Source of the DNA: Geminocystis herdmanii PCC 6308
GTDB lineage: Bacteria > Cyanobacteriota > Cyanobacteriia > Cyanobacteriales > Cyanobacteriaceae
Assembly: GCF_000332235.1 (NCBI RefSeq)
Contig: NZ_CM001775.1
Span: forward strand, 3,768,272 to 3,832,271
Length of the DNA: 64,000 bases
Direction: 5' to 3'
Numbering within the stretch: position 1 is the stretch's first letter; the number at the start of each line of letters is the position of its first letter. Positions 2,698-60,686 of the stretch are shown one piece after another. The position numbers and the translations under genes were made by a program. The notes below the pieces were generated by a model. That model had not been told where the DNA came from. It ran no database searches and saw nothing but the letters and a program-made list of their open reading frames with translations.

Positions 2698-3374
2698 TTC
2701 CACACAGGATGAGATAATAAAGCATCCATTACCCTCACTCCTCGTAATTGATTCGATAGAGGTAAATGTCCATTAGGTGCGCTTAAATCCCAAATAAATT
2801 CTTGGGGATATTTTGTCCATTTATTCCCTGATTTCCATTTCAATTGAGTCCATAATTGAGTATAATCTTTTCCTAAAGATAGCCACATTTGACGCTGTAT
2901 TTTATAGCCAAATTTTCCTTCTGAATATACTTGCCAAAGTAGATCGATCGTGCTTAAATCAGTGATAGGAAATTTCTCTACTTCCGTAAAATAAACCCAT
3001 TTTCTTTTAATAGCGGTTTCCCCAGCCAATTCACATAATTTAACCCTTGTTAAAACATCGGCTTCTTGATATTTTTGCTCAATGAGTAATCTTTGGAGTT
3101 CACTATAATCAATGTTTTTATCGGATACTAATTTAACAATTCCTTTAGGAAAATAAAGGTTTAAAAACTTCTTATTTTCTTGACTATTATTGTTTTTTAA
3201 TAATTGATATATTTTCCCCGTAACAGGATTTACTTGCTCTCTATTATTTAGTAAAAAATCTCTTAAAACTTGATAACCGTCTTCTCCTTGGTTAATTAAT
3301 TCGTTAATTAAAGGTATCCTATTTTTATCTGATGTTTGACTAAATTTATCTTTTAAAGTTAATAATTCATTCAT
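2694..3374 (-). CDS. gun4: GUN4-type tetrapyrrole-binding regulator of Mg-chelatase
   Basis: A 226-residue protein. The N-terminal ~85 residues form a helical domain, and the C-terminal ~135 residues are the GUN4 core (YSELQRLLIEQKYQEAD, WVYFTEVEKFPITDLSTIDL, PNGHLPLSNQLRGVRVMDAL). GUN4 binds protoporphyrin IX and Mg-protoporphyrin and stimulates Mg-chelatase in chlorophyll synthesis. The length fits the stand-alone cyanobacterial regulator rather than a kinase fusion. It is followed by CRR6 on the same strand, so both neighbours serve the photosynthetic apparatus. Confidence 0.9.
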   Translation of the reverse strand: MNELLTLKDKFSQTSDKNRIPLINELINQGEDGYQVLRDFLLNNREQVNPVTGKIYQLLKNNNSQENKKFLNLYFPKGIVKLVSDKNIDYSELQRLLIEQKYQEADVLTRVKLCELAGETAIKRKWVYFTEVEKFPITDLSTIDLLWQVYSEGKFGYKIQRQMWLSLGKDYTQLWTQLKWKSGNKWTKYPQEFIWDLSAPNGHLPLSNQLRGVRVMDALLSHPVWK

Positions 3375-3633: not shown

Positions 3634-4209
3634 ATGGTTTATTTATCAACGCCTTTGGAATTGGATTTAAAATTGAGTGATGATGATTTTTTGTCATTGT
3701 GTAGTAAACATCGAGATTTAAAATTTGAACGGAATATCAACGGAGATTTAATGATTATGTCACCAATGGGAGGATTAACCAGCAAACGAAATGCTGATTT
3801 GATTTATCAACTAAACGCATGGAATCGAAAATATAAATTGGGAATAATCTTTGATTCTTCAGGAGGTTTTAAACTTCCTAATGGAAGCGATCGATCTCCT
3901 GATGCTTCTTTTGTTATGATGGATAAATGGGATAATCTGACAAATGAGGAAAAAGAGAGATTTTTGCCGTTATGCCCTGATTTTTTGGTGGAATTGAGAT
4001 CACCTTCCGATAATTTAGCTAAAATTCAGGAAAAAATGCGAGAATATATGGATAATGGTGCTAAATTAGGATGGTTAATTGATCCTAATCGTAAAATAAT
4101 CGAAATTTATCGCCCTTGTCAAGCAGTAGAAATATTAGAATCTCCTCTTAATATTAAAGGAGAAGAAATTTTACCGAATTTTACTTTAGACTTAACAGAA
4201 ATTTGGTAA
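3634..4209 (+). CDS. Uma2 family endonuclease-like protein (DUF820)
   Basis: A 191-residue protein of the Uma2/DUF820 family, a PD-(D/E)XK-fold group greatly expanded in cyanobacteria. Visible signatures are RSPDASFVMMDKWDNL, the core CPDFLVELRSPSDNL with D-x-E-x-R, and KLGWLIDPNRK. The ATG at 3634 is preceded by GGAG (spacing 4). It stands alone between gun4 and a convergent PfpI-type gene. No physiological substrate is known for most members. A decayed relative lies at 62454-62600. Confidence 0.85.
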   Translation: MVYLSTPLELDLKLSDDDFLSLCSKHRDLKFERNINGDLMIMSPMGGLTSKRNADLIYQLNAWNRKYKLGIIFDSSGGFKLPNGSDRSPDASFVMMDKWDNLTNEEKERFLPLCPDFLVELRSPSDNLAKIQEKMREYMDNGAKLGWLIDPNRKIIEIYRPCQAVEILESPLNIKGEEILPNFTLDLTEIW

Positions 4210-4230: not shown

Positions 4231-4914
4231 TTATTTTTTTGTTAATGAAGCAATCAATACATCGGCAACTTTTCTACTAGATGCAGGATTTTGTCCTGTG
4301 ATAATTCTATCATCTTCTAATACAAATACTGCCCAAGGTTCGAGGGCTTTTTCAAAAATTGCTCCCCTAGCAATTAATTCTGTTTCCGTTAAAAATGGTA
4401 CAATATCTTCTAATTCTACCTGTTTTTCTTCCTCATTAGAAAATCCGGTCACTGTTTTGTTTTTAATCAATAAATTACCATCGGATAATTTAATATTGAG
4501 TAACCCTACGACTCCATGACAGACAGAACTCACATAGCCTCCCTTTTCATAAATTTGACGGGTAATTGACTGTAAAGTCTCATTGTCAGGAAAATCCCAC
4601 ATTACTCCATGACCACCTGCATAATAAATGGCAATATAATCATCAGGATTGATTTGTGCAGGGTTTAACGTGTTACCTAAACGATTCATAAATTCTTTCT
4701 TCTGATACCATTCCCAATCCATCGACTCTGCTAAAGCTAAACTATGGGGATCGATCGAAACGTAACCGCCTAAAGGACTAACATAATCTATCTCGTATCC
4801 TGCGGATTCCATTTTTTCGGCAAAATGCACTGCTTCCCCTAACCATAATCCTGTAGCTCGATTTAAGTTAGGATATTTTGCGACACTGGTTAAAACGACT
4901 AATATTTTTTTCAT
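4231..4914 (-). CDS. DJ-1/PfpI superfamily protein, Hsp31/glyoxalase III type
   Basis: A 227-residue class I glutamine amidotransferase-like protein. The nucleophile elbow is SSVCHGVVGLL, with cysteine followed by histidine. The motifs YYAGGHGVMWDFPDN upstream and VTGFSNEEE downstream match the Hsp31-like branch, which includes glutathione-independent methylglyoxal hydratases and stress chaperones. The length (~230) fits. The start ATG lies 15 bases after the end of the VTE6-like gene on the same strand, suggesting a transcript with 4930-5694. Confidence 0.85.
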   Translation of the reverse strand: MKKILVVLTSVAKYPNLNRATGLWLGEAVHFAEKMESAGYEIDYVSPLGGYVSIDPHSLALAESMDWEWYQKKEFMNRLGNTLNPAQINPDDYIAIYYAGGHGVMWDFPDNETLQSITRQIYEKGGYVSSVCHGVVGLLNIKLSDGNLLIKNKTVTGFSNEEEKQVELEDIVPFLTETELIARGAIFEKALEPWAVFVLEDDRIITGQNPASSRKVADVLIASLTKK

Positions 4915-9587: not shown

Positions 9588-10745
9588 ATGAAGATTTTAG
9601 TCGTTACTCATTATTTTCCGGCACATCGGGGAGGAGTGGAAATTGTGGCGGGAGAATTGATTTCTCGATGGTGTCATCAAGGATTAGAAGTAACGTGGAT
9701 GGCTAGTAATAATGATTCTTGTCCTAATTTTCATGATAACTTACAATGTATCTCGATCGAGTCTAATAATATCATCGAAAAAAAACTAGGTTTTGCTTAT
9801 CCTATCTGGAATATTGTTAAGGTATATCGACAACTATGGAGACAAATTAAACAAGTTGATATAATCCATATTCACGAATATATTTATCTAGGCAATATTC
9901 TTGCTTTTTATATCGCAAAACAACAAAAAAAACCGATAATTCTTACTCAGCATATTGGCTTTATTCCCTTCAGTAATCCTGTTTTTTGTTTTCTCTTAAA
10001 GTTAGTTAATTATACCCTAGGAAAATTTATCTTAACTAGGGTCGATCGAGTGATTTTTTGTAGTAAAGTAATAGAAGAATATTGGTTAAAATTAAAGCCT
10101 AAATTTAAGCAAAAACAGATATTTATTCCTAATGGGGTGGATACTAATATTTTTTATCCCGTTGACACAGAAGCAAGAATAAAAGTTAGAGAGGAATTAG
10201 CATTACCCCTAGATAAATTAACCATTCTTTTTGTGGGGCGTTTTGTGGAAAAAAAAGGCTTAAATTTACTCGAAAAATTAGCTAAAAATTATCAACAAAT
10301 AACGTGGGTTTTTGTGGGATGGGGTAGTTTAAACCCAAAAAATTGGGGTTTATCCAATGTTTATGGGTGGGAAAATTTAGAAAAAAGTGCCTTAACTCCT
10401 GTTTATCAAATGGCAGATTTACTCATATTACCTAGTAGTGGCGAGGCTTTTCCCCTCGTGATTCAAGAAGCTATGGCTTGTGGTACTCCTGCTTTTGTAA
10501 GTAGAGAAAGTGCTGATCAATATCCTCAATTACAAAACATGATATTTTCAGCAGAGGTGAATAAACCTCATTCAGAAGAAGAATGGCATAACAAAACAGA
10601 GGAAATTATCAAAAATCCGCAATTGTTAATCGATTTAAGAGAAAAAGTTGCTAATTTTGCTCAAGAATACTGGTGTTGGCAAAAAACCGCCGACAATTAT
10701 CTACAAGTTTTTGAAGATTGCTTTGTTACCTCATCAAATAATTAG
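9588..10745 (+). CDS. Family 4 glycosyltransferase
   Basis: A 385-residue GT-B glycosyltransferase. The N-terminal domain starts with THYFPAHRGGVEIVAGELI, a typical GGxE acceptor-side loop. The C-terminal nucleotide-sugar domain has LFVGRFVEKKGLNLL and the E-x7-E motif EAFPLVIQEAMACGTP. It is coupled to gtrA, so it probably adds sugar to a lipid-linked or surface glycan; donor and acceptor cannot be read from sequence. Its stop codon is the TAG of a dispersed TAGGGGTTGC element. Confidence 0.9.
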   Translation: MKILVVTHYFPAHRGGVEIVAGELISRWCHQGLEVTWMASNNDSCPNFHDNLQCISIESNNIIEKKLGFAYPIWNIVKVYRQLWRQIKQVDIIHIHEYIYLGNILAFYIAKQQKKPIILTQHIGFIPFSNPVFCFLLKLVNYTLGKFILTRVDRVIFCSKVIEEYWLKLKPKFKQKQIFIPNGVDTNIFYPVDTEARIKVREELALPLDKLTILFVGRFVEKKGLNLLEKLAKNYQQITWVFVGWGSLNPKNWGLSNVYGWENLEKSALTPVYQMADLLILPSSGEAFPLVIQEAMACGTPAFVSRESADQYPQLQNMIFSAEVNKPHSEEEWHNKTEEIIKNPQLLIDLREKVANFAQEYWCWQKTADNYLQVFEDCFVTSSNN

Positions 10746-59679: not shown

Positions 59680-59792
59680 CTATAACCCACAAATTTCCGC
59701 TAATTGCTTTTAAATCCCCATTATTCCAAGATTTTTACAGCTTATTTAGGTGTATTTACAAAAAAATCTCATCAGTTTTGACAAAAACTGTA

Positions 59793-59798
59793 TATAAT
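59793..59798 (+). promoter_or_regulatory. -10 box TATAAT before the structured RNA
   Basis: A perfect TATAAT in ACTGTATATAATAAAAGTAAGC. Transcription would start about seven bases on, near 59804-59806, just where the outer stem of the RNA begins. A TTGACA at 59778-59783 is only 9 bases upstream, too close to be its -35. Confidence 0.5.
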
Positions 59799-59801
59799 AA
59801 A

Positions 59802-59877
59802 AGTAAGCTCGCTAGTAGGTGAAAGTCGGCTTCATGCCGGGTGTTCGAGAGGCAAGTCCCCTTGAACCTAGCTTATT
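59802..59877 (+). ncRNA. Compact three-stem structured RNA beside DUF3800
   Basis: The plus strand folds into an outer stem (59802-59809 with 59870-59877, AGTAAGCT/AGCTTATT with one G-U) and a hairpin CGGC-TTCAT-GCCG (59827-59839). A ten-position hairpin closes it (59843-59852 with 59858-59867, GTTCGAGAGG/CCCCTTGAAC, one A-C mismatch and one G-U, loop CAAGT). The single strand before the first hairpin reads GGTGAAAGT. It is GC-richer than its surroundings and ends inside the stop region of the convergent DUF3800 gene. I recall Rfam holding several candidate RNAs named after DUF3800 neighbours; identity is untested. Group II intron debris is an alternative. Confidence 0.6.
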
Positions 59878-60686
59878 AAGGGCTTTATCTTTTCTAAGGT
59901 TAAAGGATTTTTTTTAGAATACCACTCTCCAGACCATCTTTTTCGTTTATCATCTACATCTACAATTAAGGAATAATTGAGGGCTAAAGGTAAGAAAAAG
60001 CTATCATCGTTTCGCTCATATAATCTTTGTAACGCCCATAGATAATAATCAATAACTTGTAATCCTACTTCTTCTGAAGATTTTTTTACATCAATTATTG
60101 TTGGTGAATCATAATTTTTACCCCATTTTTGGTTAAAATTATTTTTAGCATTTCTAATAGCATTAGCTAAGGATTCTCGTCTTTCAGATGTACCTAATCT
60201 AGCAAAAATAATTCTATTTTCATCGGCTTGATGCAACATATTTTTAAATAACAAAGTCACTAAACTATCGTAAATTTTCTCCTCTGATAATTTCTCTTGT
60301 TTATCTTCTTGAAGATGTTTAGCATAATTAATTAATTCACTTTTTCTCCTAATAGCAATTTGTACTTTTGCTTCAAATTGACCTAAAATGTTAAAAACCT
60401 CTTGACGTATTTGAGGATGGTCATTTTTTGCGTGAAAAAGTAAAGCCGTTTTCTTTGCTGATGGTTGCATTGAAGATATATTTTTAAATATGGGATCAAG
60501 TAATAAATTATCTCTTAATTTGTCTAATGTTTCTTTGACTAAAATAGGATTTGATAGTCTAACAACTCCTATCATAAAAGTATTAGAAACTCCATTTTTG
60601 CCTAACATTACCTTTCCTCTTTTATCAAATAATGTTAAATCCCCTGCTTCATCTACATAGTAGTTACGAATTTTCGTTTCTGTCAT
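59868..60686 (-). CDS. DUF3800 domain protein
   Basis: A 272-residue protein starting with the signature NYYVDEAGDLTLFD, then ALLFHAKNDHPQIRQEVFNI and later VIDYYLWALQRLYERNDDSF. DUF3800 is predicted to have an RNase H-like fold; the N-terminal D-E-x-G-D acidic cluster would be part of the metal site. Its genes are scattered and often near mobile or RNA elements. Here its last codons overlap the 3' part of a structured RNA encoded on the other strand. Confidence 0.85.
   Translation of the reverse strand: MTETKIRNYYVDEAGDLTLFDKRGKVMLGKNGVSNTFMIGVVRLSNPILVKETLDKLRDNLLLDPIFKNISSMQPSAKKTALLFHAKNDHPQIRQEVFNILGQFEAKVQIAIRRKSELINYAKHLQEDKQEKLSEEKIYDSLVTLLFKNMLHQADENRIIFARLGTSERRESLANAIRNAKNNFNQKWGKNYDSPTIIDVKKSSEEVGLQVIDYYLWALQRLYERNDDSFFLPLALNYSLIVDVDDKRKRWSGEWYSKKNPLTLEKIKPLIS

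Follow-up and report, generated by a model that had tools for sequence, protein, structure and literature searches.

The 64,000-nucleotide stretch of Geminocystis herdmanii PCC 6308 DNA analysed here (the window) carries a member of a structured RNA family that is absent from Rfam 15. Members of the family share a fold and a defined strand, occupy a fixed convergent place at the gene ends of a single DUF3800 clade, as well as at that of one member of a second DUF3800 lineage, and are found as solo copies in viruses. Relatives occupy the equivalent position in distant bacteria and stand alone in viruses, which suggests that the RNA restrains a nuclease and that viruses copy it. Our leading reading, offered tentatively and a little short of probable, is that the RNA is an antitoxin or inhibitor of the predicted DUF3800 nuclease and that the solo viral copies are decoys.

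Results

A structured RNA overlapping the end of a DUF3800 gene

The element is about 75-90 nt long and matches the covariance model R2 over its full length (Table 1), with a score that is to be read with the window sequence itself among the ten sequences of the model. It coincides with a GC-richer island, as a first-pass annotation of the window had noted: the GC content is 0.48 at positions 59804-59893, compared with 0.23-0.34 in nine neighbouring 90-base blocks. The same annotation had placed the RNA in convergent orientation inside the end of the DUF3800 gene, and this also holds, with an overlap of 23 nt at the 3' end of a gene whose product matches PF12686 (E 1.2e-8, 36.2 bits, curated cut-off 21). 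The element reaches about 59890, however, beyond the limit of 59880 proposed there. The perfect TATAAT is likewise borne out; five bases separate its end at 59798 from the element. A consensus scan of the window gave no -35 partner for this box and no terminator. Of 26 copies among the relatives, 12 have a best -10 match of 6/6 within 38 nt, compared with 1.8% of random windows of the same length, and 23 have one of at least 5/6, compared with 31%; these counts include several closely related copies, and the spacing between the box and hairpin P2 ranges from 23 to 47 nt.

Table 1 Positions of the features discussed (window coordinates unless a viral locus is named)
Feature	Position	Strand	Basis or remark
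TATAAT, likely -10 box of the RNA promoter	59793..59798	+	sequence; most relatives have a similar box upstream
Structured RNA, full model match	59804..59890	+	covariance model R2, 99.6 bits; covariation over 24 sequences
Outer helix P1a, 5' side	59805..59810	+	pairs with 59880-59885; present in some members of the family
Closing helix P1, 5' side UAGUAGG	59813..59819	+	pairs with 59872-59878
Hairpin P2, CGGC-UUCAU-GCCG, most conserved part	59827..59839	+	
Hairpin P3, tip GG CAAGUC CC	59843..59867	+	
Junction CUAG	59868..59871	+	contains CTA, complementary to the DUF3800 stop codon
3' sides of P1 and P1a	59872..59885	+	within the last codons of the DUF3800 gene
DUF3800 gene, 272 aa, predicted RNase H-like fold	59868..60686	-	
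UCCGAA...AGGA elements	L174 ~3990-4070, 4303-4368; L171 ~9765-9835; L175 ~3200-3300	-	Rfam: L174 4303-4368 alone

Relatives in genomes

A BLAST search of plasmids returned four records, two of them convincing (Annamia dubia, 90%; Geminocystis NIES-3709, 83%), and genome G003 carries the element at the same place as the Geminocystis sp. NIES-3709 plasmid pGM3709_02. Model R1 was built from four sequences, the fourth being a second, divergent Annamia copy spotted by eye. Among 195 genomes of the order, 10 gave a match at E <= 0.05; the two weakest were judged chance, and G019 and G179 were set aside on this ground. With R2, built from ten sequences, 20 of the 386 phylum genomes gave a match at E <= 0.01, including two genomes of other classes (G382 and G461, E ~1.6e-11), and at E < 1e-6 there were 20 copies in 18 of the 386 genomes. 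Left out of the R2 counts were G438 and G265 (likely chance), the second L038 match, and G003:C7 (L044, E 1.1e-4), the last as a possibly decayed copy.

The second Annamia copy (L021:13752-13842) lies on a plasmid, has the P2 loop AGAAAU, and is located ~30 nt upstream of a Peptidase_M78 gene on the same strand. A copy of the same AGAAAU-type subtype in G036 (L038:5579-5669) has a similar downstream stretch, and no Peptidase_M78 gene was seen there.

Covariation supports a three-way junction

The single-sequence fold has a z-score of -1.95 on both strands; among the 200 shuffles made per strand, 7 (+) and 6 (-) fold as well as the window element. The lone sequence thus folds barely better than chance, and the case for structure rests on comparison. 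The comparative structure is a three-way junction. The outer stem and two hairpins described in the first-pass annotation are seen on the + strand by folding, but the conserved closing stem (59813-59819/59872-59878) differs from the pairings picked by single-sequence folding. Compensatory versions of P1 in relatives include UCUCAAA/UUUGGGA, UCGCAGA/UUUGCGA and UGUGGG/CCCACA, and the tip of P3 is variable.

In an alignment of 24 sequences, which leans towards the model structure because it was fitted to that structure, 89.2% of 592 cells are paired, compared with 68.8% in shuffles, and both sides changed in 21 of 26 pairs (128 such cells vs 38.4 shuffled). The covariation score of this alignment is 0.569, vs 0.208 shuffled (sd 0.015), and falls to 0.144 or less when the partners are slid by one to three columns; further pair types number 63 vs 47.9 shuffled. 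In an unfitted MAFFT alignment of ten sequences, 11 of the 26 pairs changed on both sides, the score was 0.432 vs 0.251, and further pair types showed no excess (27 vs 26.4 shuffled). RNAalifold predicts much the same structure from this alignment. The covariation among homologous RNAs upholds the structured RNA of the first-pass annotation, and the wobble pairs uphold its orientation: the excess of G-U over A-C cells in the 24 relatives (59 vs 18) fixes the RNA strand as +.

This strand bias also bears on whether the element acts as DNA, either by folding into a site for recombination or replication or by terminating transcription in both directions at the gene end. The location at gene ends and the long palindromic closing stems of some copies would suit such a site. 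The wobble bias, the conserved loop and junction bases, the promoter-like box of most copies and the copy number, never above two per genome among the 386 at E < 1e-6, nevertheless argue against it, and we consider a DNA-level element very improbable.

Comparison with Rfam and the literature

Rfam 15 gave no match above the gathering threshold for the element over the window, none of its DUF3800 RNA models matched the window element at E <= 10, and no Rfam model matched this RNA in the relatives scanned. Group II introns and HEARO/omega RNAs, which the first-pass annotation had named for comparison, gave no match at the same E-value. The best match, TD-1, lies on the opposite strand (E 0.045, 24.3 bits vs a gathering score of 64.5), and no tRNA was found in the window. 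Known families are detectable in such loci, as DUF3800-VI was picked up in genome G071 (locus L099). Neither the window RNA nor three viral copies matched any named phage. A link of DUF3800 genes to candidate RNAs is made in the accessible part of PMC10910872. This RNA family was not found in the portions of the DUF3800 literature available to us, although it may have been described earlier.

The RNA accompanies one DUF3800 clade

The window DUF3800 protein matched 6 of the 195 genomes of the order, and the RNA is present in all six, including G003 and G131, in which the DUF3800 gene is a fragment or in two pieces. A scan of genome contigs with the same protein found two loci, neither of which R1 had seen, and R1 detected the RNA in both (L035, 86.1 bits; L036, 80.7 bits, the same contig as that of G131). 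Across the 386 genomes, the Pfam DUF3800 model gave 90 matches in 70 genomes. Ten of these are clade members (G000, which is the window's genome, G070, G071, G149, G222, G225, G259, G321, G373 and G382), and the RNA is convergent at the gene end in every one; among the ten, the protein end of G071 is altered, and G149 and G373 are near copies. Outside the clade, the RNA was found with R2 (E <= 5) at 0 of 70 loci, which cover 73 of 80 matches and contain a recognisable DUF3800 ORF in 68 cases. The other 7 matches are in G445, G328 (twice), G423, G430, G051 and G107, which have no R2 match in the 386-genome scan. In a tree, 11 RNA-bearing proteins form one clade (support 100/94); the nearest RNA-less rows, L137 and L144, fall outside it on long branches, and the protein of the viral locus L171 lies elsewhere.

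A viral scan with the clade protein profile found two loci. In L250, the RNA is convergent (43.4 bits, E 4.7e-13) and overlaps the gene end by 19 nt, and its P2 is altered to CUGC/GCAG with the pairing kept. L251 is not judgeable for the RNA because its sequence ends within the gene. The tie between RNA and DUF3800 protein proposed in the first-pass annotation is strongly supported by the clade genes and by the loci chosen by protein alone. For DUF3800 genes in general, a fold-energy test for a convergent RNA did not separate 68 flanks from 52 controls (p 0.18). By eye, some other DUF3800 gene ends look RNA-like (L092, L144, L116 and L175).

The convergent overlap of RNA and gene measures 18-34 nt in 11 of 13 loci, as would suit a cis-acting regulatory RNA, whether it works by collision of transcription, by overlapping the end of the mRNA in antisense or as a 3' processing signal. 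Against this, two of the 13 (G071 and L171) have no overlap, solo copies retain the fold and the junction bases with no such gene to regulate, and antisense control alone requires no such fold. Cis regulation therefore seems improbable to us.

The DUF3800 protein and its neighbourhood

The AlphaFold model of the protein, made with ten sequences, is fairly confident, with a pLDDT of 84 and a pTM of 0.85. All six Foldseek matches at E <= 0.001 are archaeal RNase H2/HII proteins (E 8.7e-5 to 6.9e-4), with modest TM-scores by query of 0.32-0.42; by sequence, no relative was found in the PDB. The invariant acidic residues, which include D12, E13, D16, D89, D140 and D213, are compatible with a predicted nuclease. 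The window protein matches PADLOC DUF3800_VII (E 2e-16), all eight clade proteins scanned score against this model, and L086 also scores weakly against RT-DUF3800_VII-A1. We take these models to represent retron type VII effectors. A Pfam scan of 29 neighbour proteins, a part of the neighbours, found no reverse transcriptase. Among the neighbours found in relatives are restriction-modification genes and the genes of a Peptidase_M78 and a Cas_APE2256 protein, and the setting is defence-like in several, not all, loci. The Cas_APE2256 protein is found near the RNA and the DUF3800 gene in two near-identical genomes (L043:2776-3891 and L088:5460-6575).

RNA copies without an intact partner

Ten of the 20 genomic copies at E < 1e-6 lie beside a near-full-length clade gene. 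Two lie beside a broken one (G003, a 41-residue 3' fragment; G285, two frames), three beside a remnant of 13-16 residues (G136, G303 and G385; E 0.001-0.007), and five have no clade gene within 1.5 kb or the available sequence (G070b, G259b, G371, G461 and G462), where G461 offers just 461 bases on the gene side and the RNA of G371 itself looks decayed. Outside these 20, the same trend is seen in Annamia, with two copies and one disrupted gene, in a Limnothrix contig whose gene is split into two pieces, and in G036, where there is no gene. In these searches, the clade protein was not seen without the RNA, and the RNA was often seen without the protein. Two lone copies (L042:5050-5139 and L079:400-489) are, by eye, convergent with a VapBC-like gene pair instead of DUF3800.

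A required cofactor would account equally well for the absence of clade proteins without the RNA in these searches. In such a working ribonucleoprotein, the RNA would be a cofactor or scaffold needed for DUF3800 activity, and the viral copies would either be rivals for the protein or form part of viral systems. The strict co-occurrence, the fixed placement and the conserved unpaired junction bases are consistent with this, as are the other DUF3800 proteins reported beside Cas12a2-type CRISPR systems in the part of PMC10910872 available. However, the alignment has no apparent variable guide-like segment, the RNA persists beside broken or absent DUF3800 genes, and most motif-found viral copies have no DUF3800 gene in the available DNA. 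A working ribonucleoprotein is, in our judgement, fairly unlikely.

Patchy presence, partly on plasmids, lends a little weight to the small mobile unit suggested in the first-pass annotation, but no element ends were found. In four same-genus genomes compared as possible empty sites, neither a DUF3800 gene nor the RNA stands beside the PP2C gene, and the left flank differs too, so these genomes give no clean junction at this site.

Solo copies in viruses

In IMG/VR, a pattern of the P2 core found 8 stretches and a looser pattern found 66, of which 16 passed R2 at E < 1e-3. With L183, L185 and L186 added, the viral set comprises 19 motif-found loci in ~13 lineages, grouped by eye on near-identical flanks or a shared neighbour gene; L187 was left out (E 3.4e-4 by motif, but in a GC-rich reading frame and with no CCUAG motif). 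The model scores of this set are inflated because the loci were chosen by the core motif. The closing stem lies outside the search pattern, and a stem of 7 or more pairs is present in 12 of 65 matched flanks, compared with 2.3% of swapped ones; the model rejects five of these 12 loci, and the remaining seven include a pair of twins.

A DUF3800 gene was found in the available DNA of one of 18 viral loci scanned (L171), and the result was the same for a first, weak profile that recovers 46 of 70 known loci as for an improved profile that recovers 68 of the 70. The scan covers L183 in place of its near twin L186, and the L228 sequence runs 238 bases past the RNA. The L171 gene is convergent with the RNA at a distance of 72 nt and belongs to the other DUF3800 lineage (PADLOC PDC-M04A, E 3.8e-45). 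Phage P1 RlfA (L178:1477-2181), annotated as possibly lytic-replication-associated, is similar to the L171 DUF3800 protein, and the 3.6 kb around it contain no copy of this RNA.

A tRNA gene is located within 200 nt of the RNA in 4 of the ~13 viral lineages: it abuts the RNA in L184 and L230, lies within 100 nt in L185 and the L173 group, and lies within 200 nt in L174, kin of L230. L174 also contains Rfam DUF3800-VIII (44.7 bits, cut-off 40.2). By eye, a second RNA-like element, UCCGAA...AGGA, is found near this RNA in L171 and L174 and is reminiscent of DUF3800-VIII; in Moorella phage MCACPph1, a similar element converges on a DUF3800 gene. Another viral contig (L237:8942-9008) contains an Rfam type II hammerhead ribozyme (38 vs a gathering score of 37).

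The single DUF3800 gene among the scanned loci and the two copies abutting tRNA genes would also suit a viral small RNA of another role that was captured by DUF3800 loci, where the DUF3800 protein may sense it as a sign of infection. Capture predicts clade genes without an RNA of their own, but none of the ten in the 386 genomes is of this kind, which makes the explanation quite improbable.

Discussion

In the antitoxin reading that we favour, the RNA would be made from its own promoter, bind its partner, the RNase H-like DUF3800 nuclease, directly, and hold it inactive. The RNA-nuclease unit may act as an anti-phage or addiction module, in which infection or loss of the locus would remove the RNA and free the nuclease. 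The viral solo RNAs, some beside tRNA genes, would be decoys that silence host DUF3800 nucleases. Transcription, binding, toxicity, release and the decoy role are what we infer here from the loci compared.

The first-pass annotation had suggested a ribonucleoprotein, which the two may form, but a restraining RNA fits the pattern somewhat better than a guiding one, since the protein was not seen without the RNA, the RNA is often alone, and solo copies occur in viruses, some of them near tRNA genes. The lone genomic copies may be mere relics, and the solo viral copies may have another function. In a wider version, which we find conceivable though doubtful, DUF3800 nucleases would pair with several unrelated small RNAs as toxin-antitoxin systems, and viruses would bank these RNAs as antidotes, partly in tRNA clusters. 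We know of no settled answer on the role of DUF3800-associated RNAs. The present family is a simple, testable system in which a single small RNA accompanies a single nuclease-like gene, the dependence runs one way and viruses provide natural copies. Were the RNA to prove an antitoxin, RNA-controlled defence would gain a protein fold, and some of the RNA that viral tRNA clusters contain without explanation would be accounted for.

With its conserved fold next to DUF3800 genes, the RNA belongs to a loose kind of DUF3800-linked structured RNAs, together with those of Rfam (DUF3800-VI RF02915, DUF3800-VIII RF03075 and others). DUF3800-VIII shares the L174 viral RNA cluster with it. DUF3800-VI in G071 lies upstream of another DUF3800 gene on the same strand, whereas this RNA is convergent at the gene end. 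A type VII retron has a reverse transcriptase and an msr-msd RNA beside DUF3800; the clade proteins resemble its effector in their PADLOC scores and differ in that the neighbours scanned include no reverse transcriptase. In type III toxin-antitoxin systems, a repeat RNA lies upstream of the toxin gene and is co-transcribed with it. The RNA here does not have this layout, being a single, convergent unit.

Two systems may serve as functional precedents and are not relatives. ToxIN, an RNA antitoxin with phage mimics (pseudo-ToxI), would follow the logic proposed here, as far as the available part of PMC3475682 goes; ToxI is a repeat RNA, whereas our RNA is a single unit with an RNase H-like partner. 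In Clostridioides difficile, the RCd22 RNA neutralises AbiF, with both toxicity and binding demonstrated in the accessible part of PMC12373285. AbiF/RCd22 belongs to another protein family and has another RNA, and neutralisation is a proposal in our case, but its pairing of a phage-linked protein with a neutralising structured RNA would be the same logic that we suggest for the DUF3800 clade.
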